DNA of 10,552 bases, taken from positions 1 to 10,552 of the forward strand of contig JASHWN010000014.1 of NCBI GenBank assembly GCA_030044035.1, in the 5' to 3' direction. The notes under the pieces are model-generated. The model did not search any database, was not told the DNA's origin, and saw nothing but the letters and a program-made list of their open reading frames with translations. Source of the DNA: Xanthobacteraceae bacterium. Its GTDB lineage: Bacteria > Pseudomonadota > Alphaproteobacteria > Rhizobiales > Xanthobacteraceae. Made by a program: the position numbers and the translations under genes. Of the stretch, positions 1,872 to 10,552 are shown piece by piece (within the stretch, counting starts at the first letter, position 1; the number at the start of each line of letters is the position of its first letter).

Positions 1872-1882
1872 TGCTGAAACGT

Positions 1883-1904
1883 GCTCGGCTTCCGCCGAGC
1901 TTTT
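1883..1904 (+). terminator. Hairpin plus T-run between DUF2946 gene and PCuAC gene
   Basis: GCTCGGC (1883-1889), loop TTCC, GCCGAGC (1894-1900) form a perfect 7-bp GC-rich stem, followed by TTTT (1901-1904). This is the form of an intrinsic terminator. It lies inside what otherwise looks like one operon, so it may end DUF2946 transcripts or act as a partial terminator that sets the ratio of upstream to downstream mRNA. The T-run is short, so incomplete termination is likely. Confidence 0.6.
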
Positions 1905-1928
1905 CCTCATGCGCTCACGGAGACCATC

Positions 1929-2465
1929 ATGCGCACTTTCGCGAAACTCGCTGGCGCGGCGTTGTTGATCGCCATTGCTGTTCCCGCCCTCGCTCAAGGA
2001 GCCGGCACCGCTGCCATCACCGTCGAACAACCTTGGGCGCGGGCAACGCCCGGCGGCGCCATCACCGGTGCGGTCTATATGACTGTGGACAATAAATCCG
2101 GCACTGCCGACCGCCTGACCGGTGCGTCGTCGGATATCGCCGAAAAGGTGCAAATTCATGAAATGAAGGTCGAGAACGGCGTGATGCAAATGCGCGAAAT
2201 CTCTGGCGGCCTGCCGATTCCGGCCAAGGGGTCGGTGGTGCTCAAACCGATGAGCTATCACGTGATGCTGATCGGATTGAAGAAGCCACTCGCGGCCGGC
2301 GAAAAATTCTCGCTGACGCTCACTTTTGCGAAGGCTGGGAATATTGCGGTGACAGTTCCGGTCCAGGCCATGGCTGCCACGCCGGCCGACGGCGGCATGG
2401 GCAACATGGGCGGGATGCAGGACAAGAAGCCCGGCGGCGGCATGGGCAATATGGAGATGAAGTAA
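1929..2465 (+). CDS. PCuAC-family periplasmic copper chaperone with Met-rich tail
   Basis: This 178-residue protein is exported by a signal peptide (cleavage likely after ALA at residue 22). PCuAC proteins carry Cu(I) in the periplasm and hand it to the CuA or CuB site of cytochrome oxidase, often with an SCO protein. The cupredoxin-like domain spans about residues 28-148. The copper ligand set is visible as H77 (IHEM), M88 (MQM), H111 and M113 (YHVML). After the domain comes a Gly/Met-rich tail with M157, M160, M163, M172, M175 and M177, a probable second Cu(I)-binding segment. The start at 1929 was chosen because it begins the signal peptide and has a GGAG site 6 nt upstream; the longer frame from 1881 would run through the hairpin. 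The stop overlaps the next ATG by one base (TAATG). The Bradyrhizobium homologue is called PcuC. Confidence 0.92.
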   Translation: MRTFAKLAGAALLIAIAVPALAQGAGTAAITVEQPWARATPGGAITGAVYMTVDNKSGTADRLTGASSDIAEKVQIHEMKVENGVMQMREISGGLPIPAKGSVVLKPMSYHVMLIGLKKPLAAGEKFSLTLTFAKAGNIAVTVPVQAMAATPADGGMGNMGGMQDKKPGGGMGNMEMK

Positions 2466-3076
2466 TGCCGGCGCGCCAATGGCTCTTGACGGGGCTTGCC
2501 GGCGTTCTTGGTTTTGCCTTCGCCTCGCTGTGCATCGTCTACGCCATTTCGATGCGCGTAGGCGGGCAGGAGGCCGCAACAACGTCGATCGGCGGGCCGT
2601 TCACGCTTGTCGATGATAACGGCGCGACGGTCACCGAAAAGACGCTCGCCGGCAAGCCCTATGCCATGTATTTCGGCTATACCTTCTGCCCGGAGGTCTG
2701 TCCGACCACGCTGTTCGACTTGTCGCGCTGGATCCGAAAGCTTGGGCCTGACGCCGACAAGCTCAATTACGTGTTCGTGACCGTCGATCCGGAGCGGGAC
2801 ACGGTGCCGGCGATGCATGCTTATCTGGCGTCGTTCGACAAGCACATCCGAGGCTATACCGGCACTCTGGCGCAGATCGTGCAGATCGCAAAGCAGTATC
2901 GCGTCTATTACAGGAAAATCCCCACCGATGGCGGCGGTTACACCATGGATCATTCCGCCATCATCTATCTTGTGGGGCCTGACGGTAAATTGGTCACCGT
3001 CATTGCCTATCAGGAGAACGACGCCGCGGCGCTGGCTAAACTCAGAAACCTCGCGTCGTCGGCGCCAACATCATGA
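2465..3076 (+). CDS. SCO1/SenC family copper chaperone / thiol-disulfide protein
   Basis: This 203-residue protein is anchored by an N-terminal membrane segment (about residues 6-30) with a thioredoxin-fold domain in the periplasm. SCO proteins bind copper through a CxxxC pair and a distal His, and take part in maturing the CuA centre of cytochrome c oxidase, by reducing its cysteines or passing on copper. All three ligands are present: C75 and C79 in FCPEVCP, and H163 in TMDHSA. The VTVDPERDT strand typical of the family is also present. Translation is coupled to PCuAC by a TAATG overlap. Length and motif order are normal for the family. No oxidase genes lie in the window, so the target enzyme (aa3 or cbb3 oxidase, or another copper enzyme) is unknown. 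Confidence 0.93.
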   Translation: MPARQWLLTGLAGVLGFAFASLCIVYAISMRVGGQEAATTSIGGPFTLVDDNGATVTEKTLAGKPYAMYFGYTFCPEVCPTTLFDLSRWIRKLGPDADKLNYVFVTVDPERDTVPAMHAYLASFDKHIRGYTGTLAQIVQIAKQYRVYYRKIPTDGGGYTMDHSAIIYLVGPDGKLVTVIAYQENDAAALAKLRNLASSAPTS

Positions 3077-3182: not shown

Positions 3183-3587
3183 TCACTGCCTGGCGGCGAG
3201 CCGCCACCAGTACATCAACGAATAGACCACGTACGGGACCGCCAGGACCGGGAACACCCACACCAGCCAGAGCGGAACCTTCTTAGTGACGCGTTCGGGA
3301 ACGAACATGGCGATGACGCCAAGCGCGCCAGCGATGATGACGGTCGTCAACGTCCACCCGTACCAAAGCATGTTCGGCCCTGAATTGGGGCGCGCTGTCT
3401 CGAGTCCCCAGACCAGGCGACCGATCGCCGGCCAGTAGGTGACAAGCGGATAGTTGAGATATTGGATCACGCAATAAATCACGGGGCCGGAAATCGAAAA
3501 GGTTATGGCGAACGTCCCGAATTTACTCGACCTCGCCAATGACGATGTGGGTCGCGTCGTGCCGGCGGTATTTATGGCGGTGCTCAT
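3183..3587 (-). CDS. Unrecognised three-segment membrane protein
   Basis: I do not recognise this 134-residue protein. A polar N-terminal region (1-22, rich in Ser/Thr/Ala) is followed by three predicted membrane segments at about 24-50, 73-96 and 104-128. The second and third are joined by a short basic loop (PERVTKK) and are rich in Trp and Tyr (WLVWVF, YVVYSLMYWW). There are no His residues and a single Cys (C39) in the first segment. Its ATG lies within the stop of the preceding gene (ATGA overlap, 4 nt), so the two proteins are made in a coupled way and probably form one complex in the inner membrane. No catalytic motif is seen. A subunit of a small haem or metal membrane complex is possible given the partner, but this is inference. 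Confidence 0.7.
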   Translation of the reverse strand: MSTAINTAGTTRPTSSLARSSKFGTFAITFSISGPVIYCVIQYLNYPLVTYWPAIGRLVWGLETARPNSGPNMLWYGWTLTTVIIAGALGVIAMFVPERVTKKVPLWLVWVFPVLAVPYVVYSLMYWWRLAARQ

Positions 3588-4081
3588 GACGCGAAGCCCC
3601 TTGTGTTGTTGAGGACATGGCCGACGATGAAGAGAAACCAGACGATGACGGCGAGCACCAGGGTCACACCCTTGCGCGCGTTGTCATATTCCGGGCTTTG
3701 CGCATTTTTCCAAAAGTACCAATAGGCCGGCAGCAAGACCAAGCCGATCGTCGCCATGTGCTCCTTGAAGTCGAAGAAACCTCCGGTCTTGTAATAATGC
3801 TGGGCCTCGAGCGGAATCCGGATGGCGACGCGATACTGCGTGTAAATGAATGAGCCTATGAGGAAGATGAGCACATAGAGCACGCAGACCGCCGTTGCGT
3901 ATCCGGCGGCGGGCACCGCGCGAAAGCGCGTTACGATCCCTGCCCCTGCGGCGGGCTTACGGACAGGGAACGCCACCGTCATGGCCTGGTGCGTGACCGC
4001 GCCAAGCAAGCCCAACGCCAAGATGAGGTGACCGAACAGCCATAGGGTCCAAAACGTGTTGGTGGAAATGAGGCCCGTCAT
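3584..4081 (-). CDS. Unrecognised four-segment membrane protein with intramembrane histidines
   Basis: I do not recognise this 165-residue protein. It has four predicted membrane segments at about 9-31, 55-80, 107-124 and 138-157. Histidines fall in or at the ends of three of them: H18 and H31 (segment 1), H108 (start of 3) and H155 (end of 4), with H95 in the long loop between 2 and 3. A four-helix bundle with paired His is the layout of b-type cytochromes and of some metal permeases, so haem or metal binding is plausible but unproven. The start at 4081 (MTGLIS) was chosen because the frame upstream to 4141 is polar and unlike the rest; an AAGGAG and a GGGGA run lie upstream. It overlaps the next gene by 4 nt and is divergent from nikR, with a NikR-like site in between. 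Confidence 0.72.
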   Translation of the reverse strand: MTGLISTNTFWTLWLFGHLILALGLLGAVTHQAMTVAFPVRKPAAGAGIVTRFRAVPAAGYATAVCVLYVLIFLIGSFIYTQYRVAIRIPLEAQHYYKTGGFFDFKEHMATIGLVLLPAYWYFWKNAQSPEYDNARKGVTLVLAVIVWFLFIVGHVLNNTRGFAS

Positions 4082-4286
4082 TGGTGTTTTCCCCGGCTCC
4101 TTACGGTCGCCCCCCAGTAACGACACACAGCCGCGATGCAAAGCCGTGGCCTGTTGCGCGCGAGTGGTAGCTTATCGGCTGCAGCAGCGTCCGGCAATTC
4201 GCAATCCAGGGAGCGTGCCTGTCATCGCCCACTGCACCGAAACTAGAACCGCTCTAAGCTCCGTTCGGGGCCACACGCGCAAATGG

Positions 4287-4315
4287 GTATGAGCGTGTGC
4301 CTTCGATCATCATAC
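4287..4315. promoter_or_regulatory. NikR-type operator: GTATGA-N17-TCATAC
   Basis: Half-sites GTATGA (4287-4292) and TCATAC (4310-4315) are a perfect inverted repeat; one more base pair on each side (GGTATGA/TCATACC) extends it to 7-bp arms. The sequence matches the known E. coli NikR operator GTATGA-N16-TCATAC except that the spacer here is 17 nt. It sits just upstream of nikR, which supports autoregulation. On the minus strand the right arm contains TATGAT (4309-4314), a good -10 box, so binding could also block transcription toward the membrane-protein pair. Confidence 0.75.
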
Positions 4316-4320
4316 CAATT

Positions 4321-4349
4321 TTGCTTATTTGTTCATTCAGGAATATTGT
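4321..4349 (+). promoter_or_regulatory. Predicted nikR promoter
   Basis: A -35 box TTGCTT (4321-4326) and a -10 box TATTGT (4344-4349) are separated by 17 nt, giving a leader of about 36 nt to the nikR ATG. The boxes begin 5 nt after the NikR-type palindrome. Seen by eye only. Confidence 0.5.
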
Positions 4350-4391
4350 AGCACCCACGCACGCTGCGCCAAAACCGGAAGGAAGCGGTTC

Positions 4392-4868
4392 ATGCAACGC
4401 ATTACGATCACTTTCGACGATGACCTCATGGCGGACGTCGATCGCATCATCGCGACGCGCGGATACCAGAACCGCTCCGAGGCCGTCAGGGATTTGGCGC
4501 GGGCCGGGCTCGCCCAAGCGATGCAGAGCGTGAGCGGCGGCCATGATTGCGTCGGAGCGCTGGTTTACGTTTACGACCATGCCGCGCGGCAATTGGGCAG
4601 TCGGCTGGTGCACTCTTTTCACGAACATCACGATGTGGCGCTGGCGACCATGCATGTGCATCTCGATCATGAGAGCTGCCTGGAAGTGGCGATCCTCAAA
4701 GGCCGCAATCGCGACGTTCAGAGCGTCGCCGACCAGGTGATAGCCGAGCGCGGGGTGCGCTACGGCCGGCTGTTGGCGATCCCGGTCAAGGAAGGCAGCG
4801 AACATCACGCTCATGGCGGCGACCGCGCGCGCCGCCATTCGCACAGCCACGTTCACAACACGCGATGA
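4392..4868 (+). CDS. nikR: Nickel-responsive transcriptional regulator NikR
   Basis: This 158-residue cytoplasmic repressor binds Ni(II) and then DNA, usually to shut off nickel uptake genes. The N-terminal ribbon-helix-helix domain covers residues 1-45 (MQRITITFDDDLMADVD, then NRSEAVRDLARAGL). The C-terminal ACT-like domain carries the high-affinity nickel ligands: H88, H90 and C96 in MHVHLDHESC, with H77 supplied across the tetramer interface; these match H87, H89, C95 and H76 of E. coli NikR. The tail (134-158) is unusual, with seven His (138, 139, 141, 149, 151, 153, 155), a possible extra low-affinity metal site. The ATG at 4392 has a strong GGAAGGAAG site 6 nt upstream. A NikR-type palindrome lies about 80 nt upstream, so autoregulation is likely. 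No known nickel transporter lies in the window; the convergent operon begins with a TonB receptor. Confidence 0.95.
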   Translation: MQRITITFDDDLMADVDRIIATRGYQNRSEAVRDLARAGLAQAMQSVSGGHDCVGALVYVYDHAARQLGSRLVHSFHEHHDVALATMHVHLDHESCLEVAILKGRNRDVQSVADQVIAERGVRYGRLLAIPVKEGSEHHAHGGDRARRHSHSHVHNTR

Positions 4869-4894
4869 GGGTCGCATCGGCGAAATTGGTCGCT

Positions 4895-5692
4895 TTATGG
4901 CCTGGGCGCAATGGCAACGAGACGCGCGCTCTCGCTGGCCAGAAATGCAACGAGTTCGCCGTATTGCAGCGGGCTCTCGCCGCCGTTGAGGCAATTGATC
5001 AGTACACGAAACATTTGCTCGGACCGCTCTGAATAAAACGCGGCAAATTGCTCGTAGCAGAGATAAAGATCGCGCGTAAAGCGATTACATCGATCCATCG
5101 TGATCTCAAATCCGGAGCGTACGATTCTTCGCGAAAACCATCGGTGCATCGATTGTTCGACGCCGCCGTCGCGGCCTGCCTGCAGCAACCTTGGCAATCG
5201 CGCGAAATCGCTTTGCAGCGAAAAAACATGACTGACCATGTCGGGGCCGATCCGGAACGGCGCGATATCCCTGGCGATATCGTCGCCGGCGAGGAACAGG
5301 CATTGGGTCTTGAGCAGCATGTGAAAATACGGGCGTCTCTGCCTGGGACGAATTTCATCGAAGGCCGCGCGGCCGAGGCGCAAAAGCTCAAGGCCTCCGG
5401 CAAAGGGGAACTTTGCAGCGGCGGCGTCTTCGAATTCGATATCGGCCGGATCGAAATTGGTCTCGGAAAAGTAGATAAAATCCGCGTCGGAGACGTTTTC
5501 AATCGCCAATCCCCGGGCGATCGAGCCGCGCAGATAGACCGAGCGGACGCCCGGCCGGCTCATCAACCCGTCGCGCACGAACCTCAGGAGGGGCCGCCAA
5601 ATCGTCCCGACACGCTCGATGGCGACGTCAGGCTGGATGTAACCGAATTTGTCGACGGCCAGGAAACGACCGATGCGCTGCGGTTCGATCAC
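4895..5692 (-). CDS. Nucleotidyltransferase-fold protein, third gene of receptor operon
   Basis: This 265-residue protein has a pol-beta/MNT-type nucleotidyltransferase signature near its N terminus: YLRGSIARG (G56, S57) followed by the metal-binding D69-x-D71 in SDADFIYF. The fold transfers a nucleotidyl group from NTP to a protein, small molecule or RNA; the substrate here is unknown. The rest (about 80-265) is mainly helical, with a cysteine/aromatic-rich part (CNRFTRDLYLCYEQFAAFYS), and I recognise no further domain. The stretch corresponding to the third acidic residue is not obvious, so activity is not certain. The start is GTG at 5692, 17 nt after the cupin stop, with GGGG upstream; a TTG at 5713 overlapping the cupin stop is an alternative. 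The frame is open to 6079, but that part is antisense-like shadow of the cupin gene. It ends 26 nt from the nikR stop, facing it. Confidence 0.72.
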   Translation of the reverse strand: MIEPQRIGRFLAVDKFGYIQPDVAIERVGTIWRPLLRFVRDGLMSRPGVRSVYLRGSIARGLAIENVSDADFIYFSETNFDPADIEFEDAAAAKFPFAGGLELLRLGRAAFDEIRPRQRRPYFHMLLKTQCLFLAGDDIARDIAPFRIGPDMVSHVFSLQSDFARLPRLLQAGRDGGVEQSMHRWFSRRIVRSGFEITMDRCNRFTRDLYLCYEQFAAFYSERSEQMFRVLINCLNGGESPLQYGELVAFLASESARLVAIAPRP

Positions 5693-5709
5693 TAGCGCCC
5701 CAACATTCG

Positions 5710-6951
5710 TCAATCGGCCAGGGTCAGGAAGCGCTCGCCGTGCAGATACCGCGCCAGGTTGAGCTTGGCGTCGTTGCCGAGCGGGCCGGAAAGCTCTGCC
5801 GGCCGGAATGATTGTCTCCTGCACATCTCGTCGATCGTCTCTCGGATTTTTTCCGGCAGGACGAACTTCTTGCCGGCGAATTCCATGACGACGCCACGCC
5901 GCTCGATAGAGATGTGATAGCTGCCCGCGGCGGGAGTTTTGAGCCGCGTTTGCAATCCGATTACCGCGACCTCCGAATGAAACCGTTCCTGCGGGGCAAG
6001 GCGGGCGGACCTCACCTTCTGCAAAAAGTTTTCGATCAGCCGCTCGCCGTCGATATTGTTTCGCAATAGATCCAGGCATTGGACGAGATCGCGCTGCAGC
6101 GTCCTTTTGAGCTCATCGCGGCCGATGAAACCGGGCGGCAACGCGGCGCGCAGCGGAGCGATTTCCTTTGCCGCGTTGGCAAGCTCGGCAATGAGCTCGA
6201 CCCGGGTGTAGACCGTTATGCCGATGGTGACGTGCGCCGAATGGCCGTGCGAGGTGTGGGCGGCGTGCACGTAGCCGCGCGGCAGATACAAAAGGTCGCC
6301 CGGCTGCAGCTCGAGTTCGAGCAGCGGCGGCGGCAAAGCAAAACCGATGGGGCTGAACGGTTGGCCGCGGTGCGGCAGCGGTTGCGCCGGCTCGAACACG
6401 CGCCAGCGCTTGGTGCCGGCGATCTGCAGGACGAACACCTCATGGGTGTCGTAGTGCGGCGTGAATCCCGGCGAATCTCCGGGCGTCAGATAGGCGTTGG
6501 CGTGCACCGGGTGGCTGAATTCGTCTTCCAGCGCCGAGCACAAAAGGTGCAACGGCGGCCAGGTCCGCTGCAGCGCCGGCAACACCACGGTCGCACCCGA
6601 GCCATATTCGGACTGGATTTGTCGGAGGTCAGGCACGCCGTTGAAGAACTCGGTGCCGTGCTTGATATTCCTGGTATAGGCCTCCGCCGGCAGATAGGAG
6701 CCGTTCCTGGCGAGCTGGATCGCCGGATAACGCAAGTCCGCGGACGAAATGATGCCATCCAAATCGGCATTGGTGATGACGCCGTCATAAAAGTGCGGCT
6801 CGCCGCGGCGGCGATAAAGCGGCTTGCGCTCCCAATGCTCGCGGAAGAAGTCGTCGAACCCAAGGGGGGCGATCAGCGCGGCTGGATCAAGCGCCGCTCT
6901 TCCCGGGCAATCGGCCATTTGCTCTCCGGCATCGGCTATTTGTTCGCTCAT
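5710..6951 (-). CDS. JmjC/cupin-4 family 2-oxoglutarate/Fe(II) oxygenase
   Basis: This 413-residue protein belongs to the family of ribosomal oxygenases (E. coli YcfD/RoxA, human MINA53 and NO66), which hydroxylate a side chain of a protein using Fe(II), O2 and 2-oxoglutarate. The JmjC core shows the iron triad: H166 and D168 in TPHYDTHEVF, and H229 in YLPRGYVHAAH. The strand after the first ligands (LQIAGTKRWRVFEP) is typical. The C-terminal part (about 260-413) would hold the dimerisation and winged-helix regions, in keeping with family length. The start ATG 6951 lies 7 nt after the TonB receptor stop, so the genes are co-transcribed; a longer frame from 7014 would overlap the receptor. True RoxA genes are usually not linked to outer-membrane receptors, so its substrate here may be a peptide or partner protein of this operon. 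That is inference. Confidence 0.9.
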   Translation of the reverse strand: MSEQIADAGEQMADCPGRAALDPAALIAPLGFDDFFREHWERKPLYRRRGEPHFYDGVITNADLDGIISSADLRYPAIQLARNGSYLPAEAYTRNIKHGTEFFNGVPDLRQIQSEYGSGATVVLPALQRTWPPLHLLCSALEDEFSHPVHANAYLTPGDSPGFTPHYDTHEVFVLQIAGTKRWRVFEPAQPLPHRGQPFSPIGFALPPPLLELELQPGDLLYLPRGYVHAAHTSHGHSAHVTIGITVYTRVELIAELANAAKEIAPLRAALPPGFIGRDELKRTLQRDLVQCLDLLRNNIDGERLIENFLQKVRSARLAPQERFHSEVAVIGLQTRLKTPAAGSYHISIERRGVVMEFAGKKFVLPEKIRETIDEMCRRQSFRPAELSGPLGNDAKLNLARYLHGERFLTLAD

Positions 6952-6958
6952 CGGGCGC

Positions 6959-9900
6959 TCAATAGTTGCCGAAGAGCGGCCCGAATTTATAGGCGAGACC
7001 GACGCGAACGTCACTGACCGGCACTGGGTTCGCGGCAGCGGCGGAATTGGTGGCGACGTTAACGAAGCCCGCGGTCTTCAGCTCGGTGTAGCGGTATTCG
7101 AGGCGGCCGAAGACGTTGCCGGTCAAGGCGTAGTCCAGTCCGGCGCCGGCGGTCCAGCCGGAAAAGTTGCCGCCATTGGCAGCGAACGGAGCGGAGCCGA
7201 GAAGCGCGTAGGTGTTCGCAGGATCGCCCCATGCCAACCCGCCGGTGCCGAAGACAAGGAAACGATCGAAGGCAAAGCCCAATCGGCCGCGGACCGACTC
7301 GTAGTTTTTGATCGTGGTCGAGACGGTGAAAGGGCCGCCGGGAAGGGCGCCGGTGGCGCCGAGCGCGGCCTGCTGTTGACTGTTGCCGGTCAGGTTGGCG
7401 CGCTGCCAATCGGCTTCTACTCCGGCCACCCACTGACCGAGTTGATAATTGGCACCGGCGAAGATTCCGGCAAACGGGCCGTTCACGCTGTAATCGTAGG
7501 CCGCCAAAGGTGCCCCCGCCGCGGTGGTCAAAATTCCGTTGGCGGCCTGCCAGCCATAGCCGCTGTCGCCGCCGATGTAGAACCCGGTCCAGGTGAAGGC
7601 AGGGGAAACAGAAGGTGCCTTGACGGGAAGCGCGGGCCCGTCGGCGTAACGAGCGGGCGGCGACTTGTAGACCACCGGCGCGGCATTGGCGCTCGCCGGT
7701 GCGCCCCAGTTGAACTTGTAGTTCACCCCGACGTCGAGCGTGCTCACTTTGGTCGTCGACGTCGTGGCGAGTTCTGAGAACGGCAATCCGATCACCGTCG
7801 ATCCGTAGTCGGTATAGCGATACTCGGCGAAGGCGTTCCAGTTCTGGGCAAAGGCAACCGCCACTCCCGCGCCCGCGGTCCAGCCGCCGAGATAGCGGTT
7901 GACCGCCTCGTCGGTGCCGGCGGTCGCCAGGTTGAGCGTGCCGGTCAATTGGGTGCGGATGTATTGATTGCTCGACCAGGCCCAGCCGCCGGTGCCGTAA
8001 AGCAGCACGTTGTCGAGCGCGTAGCCGAGCCGCCCGCGCACGGTTTCGCTGTCGAACACGGTGAGCTGGCTGGCGCTGGTGCCGGACGCATCCGTGGCCG
8101 TGATCGACTTGGTGCCGCCGGAGGTCACGTCGCCGACAACGCCGATCACGACGCGCGATGGCAGCATATAATCGTAGCCGACCTGAACGCCGCCGTGCCA
8201 ATTCGGCGGACTGCCGTAGATCGGCGCCGTCGTGCTGCCCGTTGCGGCGTTGACGGTGCTGCCGCTGGTGTTCGACAACGCGGCACCGACATGCGCGCCG
8301 ACATAAAGCCCGGTCCAATCGTAGGCCCCGGGCCGCAGCGGCGCCGCCGGAAACGATCGCTTCATGTCGGCGGCCATCGCCGGAATGTTGAGCGTGCCGA
8401 TCGTCTCCAGCGGTCCGGCGAGCGTCAACCGAAAGGCCAGCGGCTCGACCGGGTGGTAGACGTAGTCCATGAAGCCGTTGGCGCAGACCGCCGCCGGAAT
8501 CTTCGGCGTCGGATTGCACATGGCGTACAGGGCATCGGAGGTGAGCAGTGTGCCATAGGCGTAGGTGGCCAAATCGGTCGTCGAGTTGAGCAGGTTGAGC
8601 GCGTCGAGCTGGATGCGCCAGCCGTTCTCGAACCGGTAACCGACGCCGGCATTGATGATGTTGAATGGCGGCGACTGGAAGATGCCGTCCTCGGTCAGCG
8701 GCCGCGAGCTGATGTAGCGCCAGCGCAGCGCGCTGAACCAGCCGGCCTTCGCGCCGAGCGTGATGCCGGCCGACGCGATCATCCAAGGCGCGTTATAGAC
8801 GTAATTGCCCGGCGCATTGCCGATCTGCGACTGCGGATAGCCGGCGAGCGACTGGTAGAGCGCCGCTTGGGTATAGTCGTAACCGATAAACCGCGCCCGC
8901 GACAGCGCCAGATTGGCGTCGATGTGTGCCCACGAGACCGGACGGTAATCGTTGGTGAACTCGACGCCGGTGCGGTCGCTGGGCAGGCCCGGCGTGGTAT
9001 CGCCGGTATCGCCGTCGAAAAACAGCTCGGAGTTCTGATGGATGTAGAACAGGCTGACCGAGCTGTCGAGGTTCGGTATGGCTTTGCTGCGGACGCCGAC
9101 CTCGGCGCCGGTCGAGCGCACCAGAAACGGCGACCATCCCTCGGGCGTCGCCGGATCGCCCGGCACCTGGGTGACCAGCGTGCTGCGCGCGTCGTTGCTG
9201 TGGTAGCCGCCGCCGGCGCCGACAAAAAATTCGGTGTTGGCGAACGGCCCCAGCACCATGCGGAATTTCGGGCTGCCGATGGCCTCTTGGCGATATCCCG
9301 AATTCGCCGGCTGCAGGATCGAGTTGACCGAAGCTGCATAATAATCGCCGCGCCAACCGAGGACCGTCTGCAACCAGTTGGTCCAGTGTATCGTATTCTC
9401 GGTGTAGATTGCGCCGTTGCCTTCGCCGACGTGATCGTAGATGTACGGCGTCAACAGCTGCCGCTGATCCGAATAGTTCAATGCCGTAATGATGTCGTCG
9501 TAGCGCGATTGGACGCCGATCAAGGTCTCGGTCGGTAGACCGAACAGCGCGCCGTCGAACGTGCGCGAGGCGCCGCCGCCGCCGTAAACGCGATCGTCGT
9601 GCTGATGGAATTGATCACCGTTCACCGGATTGTAGGTGTCATAGGTGTAGTTGTTCCACAGGTCCATCATGTATTTGACGACATAGGCGTTGGCCTTCCA
9701 CGATCCGTCGTCGGTGGTTTGCGCCAGGCGCCCCGACAGCGAGAAGCGGGCGGTGTCGCCGCCGTCGGTCCCATCGAACTGGCCATAAAGGCCCATTTGG
9801 CCGGTCGTGTAGTACCGCAGCGCGTTCTGATCGGTCGAGTTCCAGCTATTGGTGTAGGCCGCTGCGGTCAGCGACAGGCCGTCGGTCGCCGTGCCCCGCG

Positions 9901-10552
9901 TGTAGCGCAACAGCCCGGTGAATTTGTTCATGTCGTCGGGATTGGTCCAGGGACCGTCATAGCTGTTGAATTCGCCGGCATAGAGCAGCGTCCCGCCGCC
10001 GAGCTTGGTCGAGCCGAGCGTCAGATAGCGCTCGTAGCCGAAGCTGCCGACGCTGACCGACTCGATATTTTGTTCGACGCTGTCGCGGAAATTGATGTGC
10101 AGGTTGCCGGCATTTTCGAAGTCGCCGACGTCGGCCCAATACGGCCCCTTGCGGATGTCCATGCCGCCGACGGTCTCCGGAATGAGCCAGTTGAGGTCGG
10201 TGTAGCCCTGGCCGTGCGCATGGGTCGGCAGATTGATCGGCACGTCGTCGACGAAGGTGGCGAGATCGGTGCCGTGATCGAGATTCCAGCCGCGCAAATA
10301 ATACTGATTGGCCTTGCCGGCGTCGGCGTGCATGACCGTCATCAGGCCGGGCGCAGCCTCGACGATTTCACCGGGACGCGAGATCGGACGGGCGTTGAGG
10401 TCCGCGCCCGAGACCGTCATCTGGCTGCCCATGGTCGGCGCCACCGCCGCGCCGCCGGCGATATTCGGCGCGCCGGTCTCGTAGGGCGAAGGCGCGGCCG
10501 GCACCGTCGCTTGTGCCGGGGCGTTTGCCGGGGCGCGGACGCGGCGTTGCTG
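6959..10552 (-). CDS. TonB-dependent receptor fused to two Omp25/31-like beta barrels (5' end outside window)
   Basis: One unbroken frame of 1181 codons from 10504, plus 16 more codons to the window edge; signal peptide and TonB box lie outside. Numbers count from the codon at 10504. Residues 28-150 are the plug domain (MTVSGADLNARPISRPGEIV; YYLRGWNLDHGTDLATFVDD; LPTHAHGQGYTDL). Residues about 150-705 are the large TonB-receptor barrel, ending near AFRLTLAGPLE. At 710-725 a segment with AMAADMK resembles the cleavage site and mature start of a small Omp. Then come two small-porin domains of about 205-212 residues: 728-933 (DWTGLYVGAHVG to YKFNW) and 970-1181 (TWTGFYIGGDSG to LAYKFGPLFGNY), joined by a Pro/Ala linker. 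The two are diverged paralogues of Omp25/Omp31 type. Such receptors import scarce metal complexes or cofactors using the proton motive force. The ligand is unknown; nikR nearby hints at nickel. JmjC and nucleotidyltransferase genes follow. Confidence 0.9.
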   Translation of the reverse strand, partial: QQRRVRAPANAPAQATVPAAPSPYETGAPNIAGGAAVAPTMGSQMTVSGADLNARPISRPGEIVEAAPGLMTVMHADAGKANQYYLRGWNLDHGTDLATFVDDVPINLPTHAHGQGYTDLNWLIPETVGGMDIRKGPYWADVGDFENAGNLHINFRDSVEQNIESVSVGSFGYERYLTLGSTKLGGGTLLYAGEFNSYDGPWTNPDDMNKFTGLLRYTRGTATDGLSLTAAAYTNSWNSTDQNALRYYTTGQMGLYGQFDGTDGGDTARFSLSGRLAQTTDDGSWKANAYVVKYMMDLWNNYTYDTYNPVNGDQFHQHDDRVYGGGGASRTFDGALFGLPTETLIGVQSRYDDIITALNYSDQRQLLTPYIYDHVGEGNGAIYTENTIHWTNWLQTVLGWRGDYYAASVNSILQPANSGYRQEAIGSPKFRMVLGPFANTEFFVGAGGGYHSNDARSTLVTQVPGDPATPEGWSPFLVRSTGAEVGVRSKAIPNLDSSVSLFYIHQNSELFFDGDTGDTTPGLPSDRTGVEFTNDYRPVSWAHIDANLALSRARFIGYDYTQAALYQSLAGYPQSQIGNAPGNYVYNAPWMIASAGITLGAKAGWFSALRWRYISSRPLTEDGIFQSPPFNIINAGVGYRFENGWRIQLDALNLLNSTTDLATYAYGTLLTSDALYAMCNPTPKIPAAVCANGFMDYVYHPVEPLAFRLTLAGPLETIGTLNIPAMAADMKRSFPAAPLRPGAYDWTGLYVGAHVGAALSNTSGSTVNAATGSTTAPIYGSPPNWHGGVQVGYDYMLPSRVVIGVVGDVTSGGTKSITATDASGTSASQLTVFDSETVRGRLGYALDNVLLYGTGGWAWSSNQYIRTQLTGTLNLATAGTDEAVNRYLGGWTAGAGVAVAFAQNWNAFAEYRYTDYGSTVIGLPFSELATTSTTKVSTLDVGVNYKFNWGAPASANAAPVVYKSPPARYADGPALPVKAPSVSPAFTWTGFYIGGDSGYGWQAANGILTTAAGAPLAAYDYSVNGPFAGIFAGANYQLGQWVAGVEADWQRANLTGNSQQQAALGATGALPGGPFTVSTTIKNYESVRGRLGFAFDRFLVFGTGGLAWGDPANTYALLGSAPFAANGGNFSGWTAGAGLDYALTGNVFGRLEYRYTELKTAGFVNVATNSAAAANPVPVSDVRVGLAYKFGPLFGNY

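Follow-up and report, generated by a model that had tools for sequence, protein, structure and literature searches.

Why should a TonB-dependent receptor continue, past the strand at which its relatives end, into two further outer-membrane barrels? The question is raised by a stretch of 10,552 nucleotides (hereafter the window), which is an entire contig, JASHWN010000014.1, of the draft assembly GCA_030044035.1 (637 contigs, 68% complete) of a Xanthobacteraceae bacterium, and whose minus strand carries at 6959-10552 a frame that is uninterrupted over 1197 codons and reaches past the window edge. We consider it probable that this frame, under repression by NikR, codes for a TonB-dependent receptor that takes up nickel or a nickel chelate, that two eight-stranded barrels of the Omp25/31 type were attached to this receptor in frame by the common ancestor of the fused forms, and that these barrels act as a scaffold. 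The sequence places three barrels in one chain and modelling predicts them as such; that nickel is the cargo is suggested by gene context, and the barrels would reside in the outer membrane as one uncut chain.

The gene itself extends beyond the contig end, and the listed GTG at 10504 is not its true start. The closest relative of the chain exceeds it in length by 86 residues and has, before the point at which the window chain breaks off, a signal peptide and the stretch LPEIRVVG, which we take to be TonB-box-like; such a stretch is seen in relatives only, and the TonB box of the window's own chain would fall off the contig. The GC-rich DNA of this region holds other long frames, which argues against frame length as proof, and the reality of the chain rests instead on domain matches, 120 listed homologues, the ratios of non-synonymous to synonymous substitution rates (dN/dS) and two AlphaFold models. 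With Pfam we recovered the Plug domain (residues 42-148), the TonB receptor barrel (207-654) and OMP_b-brl (PF13505) in two stretches (best 740-947; 89.3 bits across both), the whole-protein scores exceeding the cut-offs. Plug and receptor barrel in one chain mark it as a TonB-dependent receptor, and with at least two complete barrels predicted per polypeptide it belongs among the multi-barrel proteins. The original prediction, made from the letters of the window, was of a single polypeptide with three outer-membrane barrels, to be checked by a domain search, and the domains, homologues and models agree with it. The tail beyond the last strand of the receptor (residue 713) measures 484 residues, close to the stop-free continuation of about 475 first described, and the paired motifs that were to open and close the two small barrels could all be located (WTGLY at 8303-8317 and WTGFY at 7577-7591; YKF at 7712-7720 and 6983-6991). 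The junction motif AMAADMK is likewise present, at 8360-8380 and not at the 8345-8377 first assigned to it.

The whole chain was modelled by AlphaFold with a predicted local distance difference test score (pLDDT) of 81.9 and a predicted template modelling score (pTM) of 0.79, and the tail by itself with a pLDDT of 79.7 and a pTM of 0.57. As the original prediction had it, a receptor barrel is predicted together with two separate small barrels, each of eight long strands (barrel 1 as taken from the whole-chain model and barrel 2 from the tail-only model). Per-barrel Foldseek rows on the tail model point to an OmpA/NspA/OmpW-like fold; they were used in place of the top rows, which were FadL-type barrels with poor superposition (TM 0.2-0.3, root-mean-square deviation 14-23). 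The fold search did better than a sequence search of solved structures with the single chain, which gave no match at E <= 0.01. The PF13505 profile and the eight strands of each barrel are consistent with the Omp25/31-like type first proposed. Barrels of the OmpA/NspA type with eight strands are generally closed, which makes the accompanying label of small porins doubtful.

To what extent is this architecture shared? A protein search scored 7994 candidates, of which 7886 were kept, and homologue counts were taken from the best 120 of these 7886, ranked by whole-length score and thereby biased towards fused forms. All 120 possess at least one extra barrel, with two in 106 (of which a pair show a short second barrel, of 108 and 123 residues) and one in 14, a recurrence of the three-domain order for which a survey had originally been proposed. 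Among 20 genomes of the window's genus the receptor is present in seven: the window genome, G153, G146, G154 and G152 have the two-barrel form (that of G152 being read as one gene from two pieces that sit on different contigs and are separated by a gap), and G076 and G159 have the one-barrel form, with a second copy in G159 cut by a contig end. The other 13 draft genomes gave no receptor match. A survey of the family found the receptor at E <= 1e-100 in 166 of 391 genomes and the fused form in at least eight, namely the seven of the genus and G726, a genome of another genus (8.5 Mb in 90 contigs, completeness estimated at 100%) whose fused frame has 1273 residues; fused forms among the weakest matches, which lie outside the list, would be missed in this count. 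A survey of the order found the receptor at E <= 1e-80 in 28 of 397 genomes, fused in the window's only. Purifying selection acts on the receptor and on both small barrels: in comparisons of four fused genes the receptor gives dN/dS values of 0.10-0.27, barrel 1 of 0.15-0.21 and barrel 2 of 0.12-0.29, with the linkers being looser (0.28-1.21 for linker 1 and 0.32-0.54 for linker 2). The incomplete draft state of the window's assembly might be taken to favor a missed stop, frameshift or misassembly that joined separate genes. However, close relatives do not consistently encode these parts separately, as an artefact would have led one to expect; two barrels follow the receptor in four further genomes of the genus, in G726 and in the 106 listed homologues. 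An error of assembly or frame is ruled out by these forms, its probability being almost nil, and the fusion is confirmed as real and inherited.

The strongest clue to the function of the fused receptor is its link to nickel, which does not figure in the original prediction. The fused gene has nikR nearby in the window, G153, G154 and G726, and HoxN/NicO nearby in G159, so that one or the other lies near five of the seven fused regions scanned with flanks. Unfused relatives show comparable surroundings on three plasmids: that of Afipia carboxidovorans pHCG3 adjoins nikR near hypB-hypF, that of Bradyrhizobium 62B p1 is flanked by a HoxN/NixA gene on one side and hydrogenase genes on the other, and that of Cupriavidus necator pHG1 is about 4.4 kb from HoxN and farther from the regulatory hydrogenase. 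We then considered 40 unfused regions hand-chosen from the receptor matches, excluding these plasmid regions (L099-L101), which had supplied the marker queries, along with 20 control regions drawn from the same contigs. NikR is encoded in 19 of the 40 (divergently and just upstream in 16) and HoxN in seven, with either in 24; neither was found in any of the 20 controls, one of which had a short HypF-like match.

The upstream DNA was scored against the Escherichia coli NikR operator consensus, GTATGA-N16-TCATAC as given in an excerpt of PMC7055735. All eight fused loci having upstream DNA (G153, G146, G154, G159 twice, G076, G152 and G726) are preceded by a dyad that matches the operator at 11-12 of 12 bases; in six of them it begins 158-192 bp ahead of a candidate signal-peptide start, and TTGAC, a -35-like element, falls within it in seven. 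An exact-pattern scan of the 20 genus genomes with GTATGM-N16-TCATAC returned 15 matches at 13 places, as against two for the reversed pattern used as a control. Eight of these places are at fused receptors (two of them at G076), and three of the other five adjoin nikR (G149, G155 and G159:C34). Within 900 bp upstream of the unfused receptors a dyad of at least 11 with a spacing of 16 is present in 24 of 40, with single-base shuffles of the same DNA peaking mostly at 9-10 and reaching 11 at three loci; the pHCG3 relative has a dyad of 11. Judged from sequence, control of the relatives by NikR and nickel appears well supported; the window gene, whose promoter lies off the contig, would share this control. 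Separately, two NikR-like dyads of 11/12, 31 bp apart, occur at G076:C340:1698-1725 (L174), upstream of a further TonB receptor whose frame of 787 residues shares 26% identity with that of the window.

To understand the provenance of the fusion, we examined a quick receptor tree, made without bootstrap and weakly supported at its root, of 106 domains (58 of them from unfused rows, the rest from 42 of the 120 homologues, five named loci and the window itself). All 48 fused rows group in a single clade (Shimodaira-Hasegawa-like approximate likelihood ratio test, SH-aLRT, 100) nested within the unfused receptors, and on this tree the fusion appears to have arisen once, in a common ancestor. In an equally quick barrel tree the rows of barrel 1 and those of barrel 2 fall into two clades, the former beside stand-alone Omps, and the two barrels are 32% identical to each other, which together rule out the tandem duplication of a single omp gene as the origin of both. 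The receptor was originally suggested to have fused in frame with a tandem omp array; fusion to former stand-alone Omps stands, and an array of like omp genes is not supported, given this low identity, the separate clades and the lack, in all 40 unfused regions, of any same-strand gene resembling barrel 1 or barrel 2 in the 3 kb downstream of the receptor. Of 63 complete, distinct frames of unfused receptors 60 terminate in Phe, and the corresponding strand of the fused receptors reads GP[LI] in all 115 in which the junction pattern was found, indicating that the usual terminal Phe of the β-signal was lost in the fused chains.

From these observations a course of events may be proposed. Nickel scarcity would lift the repression by NikR; the whole chain would be exported via one signal peptide, and the β-barrel assembly machinery (BAM) would insert the receptor and the two small barrels side by side, with the linkers in the periplasm. 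The receptor would import nickel using TonB energy, and the small barrels would remain attached as a built-in scaffold anchoring or clustering it. Barrel 1 seems to be an integral part, and barrel 2, which is missing in some lineages, may be more loosely tethered.

Several other interpretations must be weighed against this one. The chain could be a polyprotein that is cut at AMAADMK after export, with the small barrels freed as Omps and perhaps linked to peptidoglycan via the new N-terminus as in Hyphomicrobiales Omps; the N-terminus of Brucella Omp25 is indeed tethered to peptidoglycan, according to an excerpt of PMC12729407. PAMAAD at the junction resembles the sites of stand-alone Omps, in which AD[LMV] is found in 14 of 14 scorable sequences (16 were chosen, two without the WTG motif being left out), and the spacing from AD to W is 18 at the junction as against 19-28 in these Omps. 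A small residue is retained at the -3 position in 88 of 115 fused sequences (A in 58, G in 20, S in 10; the junction was scored in 115 of 121, six without a pattern match being left out), which also speaks against the site being a mere vestige. However, the same position holds R, E, K or M in 20 of the 115, and the maximum 10-residue hydropathy before the site is 0.80-1.59 in the fused chains as against 2.16-2.90 in the 14 stand-alone Omps, such that every scored chain falls below the range expected of an OMP_b-brl barrel with its own signal peptide and free N-terminus. Moreover, the site lies inside a predicted helix in the whole-chain model, although the pLDDT of this helix is only 53-62 in the tail-only model. 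Because the hydrophobic core is gone and a helix is predicted at the site, AMAADMK looks like the vestige of a lost signal-peptide site; a working signal-peptidase site is not supported, and the polyprotein is highly improbable. Hence, the former cleavage site of a stand-alone Omp recognized in the original prediction survives as a mark of the old site and not as a functional one, and its proposal that the barrels are processed off after export is disfavored. It is rather unlikely that the extra barrels are folded passengers, a harmless fusion having been fixed by drift and retained as its loss is not favored. The linkers drift fast, the 13 draft genomes of the genus lack a receptor match, and within the fused clade the one-barrel label is scattered, changing six times on the tree with at least four changes forced by the starred branches; we read these rows as repeated loss of barrel 2. 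Against mere passengers stand the purifying selection on both barrels, the extra barrel in every one of the best 120 homologues (in a ranking that favors fused forms) and the construction of similar fusions with other barrels by the same lineage. The small barrels probably have the scaffold role proposed above, which we place only weakly ahead of the passenger reading.

As for the cargo, the small barrels might handle the ligand, their surface loops binding the nickel chelate or funneling it to the receptor. In favor of this, the receptor that carries them is under nickel control, and in G155, of the same genus, a fusion of Omp with OprB stands directly behind a 12/12 NikR dyad adjoining nikR. 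Yet barrel 1 has only two His and barrel 2 none, neither has Cys (as read from the sequences), and the loops of barrel 2 are poorly predicted in the whole-chain model, which renders such a role unlikely. The receptor might alternatively take up cobalt or another metal chelate, with the nickel genes nearby through shared regulation. A cation-efflux gene and a CsoR-type repressor gene, which we take to be DmeF/DmeR, lie beside the fused receptor in five genomes, G146, G154, G159, G076 and G152 (in regions L068 at 11885-13430, L069 at 9671-10969, L070 at 7649-9437, L071 at 7934-9183 and L193 at 4113-5363), the Pfam run covering the L068 pair of G146 alone, and G076 has a Peripla_BP_2 binding-protein gene. 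The dyads at all eight fused loci with upstream DNA, nikR or HoxN near five of the seven scanned regions and the hydrogenase genes near unfused relatives run counter to this, and we regard another metal as improbable. Several observations nonetheless weigh against the NikR-controlled nickel receptor with scaffold barrels. All the evidence comes from sequence and prediction. Neither NikR nor HoxN is found in 16 of the 40 unfused regions; a dyad of at least 11 is absent from 16 of the 40 and from pHG1 and Bradyrhizobium 62B p1; none is seen inside the window; and G146 and G076 show the cation-efflux/CsoR-type pair and no NikR or HoxN in the stretch scanned, which leaves some room for cobalt. To these may be added the scatter of the one-barrel label, the pTM of the tail-only model, which amounts to no confident placement of barrel 2 relative to barrel 1, and the internal receptor strand without a terminal Phe, which leaves assembly by BAM unexplained.

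Fusions of two further kinds occur in the genus. In one, chains of about 700 residues combine an N-terminal small barrel with a C-terminal OprB porin (20 rows of such size are in the barrel tree), and the nikR adjoining the one in G155 is 80% identical to the window's. A different TonB receptor is followed by one small barrel; PF13505 is tagged in 119 of 120 listed relatives of the L190 chain (68-94% identical), and its type of barrel groups (support 91) with a stand-alone omp gene directly beside its receptor gene. On the quick tree the barrels of both kinds fall in clades separate from barrels 1 and 2, suggesting that fusions of receptors or porins with Omps arose at least three times in this lineage. 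There is about an even chance, in our estimation, that the locus is a nickel-starvation import island cast as one polypeptide, a receptor with two accessory barrels, in a lineage that repeatedly builds multi-barrel importers (receptor with Omp twice, Omp with OprB), with NikR dyads ahead of two or more of them, and that an internal barrel here assembles without the Phe of the β-signal. The window's own genome has at L009 1-1872 (contig C42) an Omptin match and then OMP_b-brl, possibly another two-barrel chain.

The remaining genes of the window are in part conserved with the fused receptor (Table 1). The JmjC_2 and nucleotidyltransferase-like genes follow it in the same order in the window, G153, G146 and G154, and in G152 the JmjC gene is present; neither gene turned up near the unfused regions, the one-barrel forms or the two-barrel G726. 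On the other strand, at 1881-3076, a PCu(A)C copper chaperone gene is directly followed by SCO1 (by Pfam), a copper-delivery pair, and at 3183-4141 (-) are two overlapping small genes, membrane-like by eye, with no Pfam or NCBIfam match at E <= 0.01.

Table 1. Features of the fused receptor gene, its neighbors in the window and related fusions in other regions (region handles are given where coordinates are not those of the window)
Feature	Coordinates	Strand	Evidence and remarks
TonB plug domain, residues 42-148 of the 1197-codon frame	10109..10429	-	Pfam PF07715, 34.4 bits vs cut-off 23.9; N-termini of relatives; signal peptide and TonB box beyond contig end
TonB-dependent receptor barrel	8414..10108	-	Last strand PLAFRLTLAGPL; unfused relatives end there at AGxF
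Linker 1, residues 714-744	8321..8413	-	Predicted helix 723-733 holds AMAADMK; low-confidence in tail-only model
Small barrel 1, eight predicted strands, residues 745-947	7712..8320	-	Pfam PF13505; AlphaFold; clade beside stand-alone Omps
Linker 2, residues 948-985	7598..7711	-	Predicted disordered, pLDDT <50 at 951-984; identity 0.32-0.84 among four relatives
Small barrel 2, eight predicted strands, residues 986-1191	6980..7597	-	Missing from one-barrel relatives
JmjC_2 (cupin-type oxygenase-like) gene, just downstream of receptor	5710..6951	-	Pfam PF08007, 94.2 bits; start inferred; probably same operon
Nucleotidyltransferase-like gene, third in probable operon	4895..5719	-	PF01909, 20.6 bits, just below cut-off 21
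nikR, nickel-responsive repressor	4392..4868	+	NCBIfam TIGR02793, 189.2 bits vs cut-off 175.45; Pfam NikR_C
Small barrel + OprB chains	L064 1233-3269; L066 1387-3525; L189 2805-4892; L069 3432-5534 and 5686-7734; L070 11623-13686		Pfam on three such chains
Different TonB receptor + one C-terminal small barrel	L190 1243-4464 (1074 residues); L191 2847-6119; L192 3076-6540		Pfam on L190 only

The fused receptor offers a natural, conserved test case for how BAM recognizes and inserts internal barrels that do not end at the C-terminus, and for whether attached accessory barrels help a receptor work or stay put, and its unfused, one-barrel and two-barrel relatives can be compared cleanly. Nickel is moreover indicated as the substrate of a family listed merely as TonB-dependent receptor, Fe-transport receptor or opacity-like antigen. 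Multi-barrel outer-membrane proteins are reportedly a known kind. Our literature search on multi-barrel or receptor-Omp fusions returned works that cite Solan et al., the rest being unrelated, and cannot establish that the fusion is unpublished; the combination of a receptor, two barrels and nickel control, its single origin and its recurrence are new to us.

Among known systems, the small barrels resemble the Omp25/31-type OMP_b-brl proteins in belonging to the PF13505 family and in their OmpA/NspA/OmpW-like fold, and unlike them have no signal peptide of their own, being internal to a receptor chain. The unfused alphaproteobacterial receptors of Afipia pHCG3 and Bradyrhizobium 62B p1 are of the same family (53-58% identical) and share the nickel gene context; unlike the fused chain they end at the last strand, in AGRF and AGTF respectively, with no extra barrels. 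The PqqU/YncD, BtuB and FecA receptors, which have other substrates and a single barrel, are only 12-14% identical to the window receptor. FrpB4, FecA3 and NikH of Helicobacter are likened to the fused chain by their regulation; they are not known to have more than a single barrel, to which the fused chain adds two. In excerpts of PMC7689651 and PMC7055735 they figure as outer-membrane receptors regulated by nickel through NikR. Proteins with several barrels have been described before (Solan et al. 2021, as cited in an excerpt of PMC8592465), and with these and the two-barrel model of GfcD the fused chain shares the possession of more than one barrel domain per polypeptide, being probably set apart as a receptor followed by two eight-stranded barrels under nickel control.

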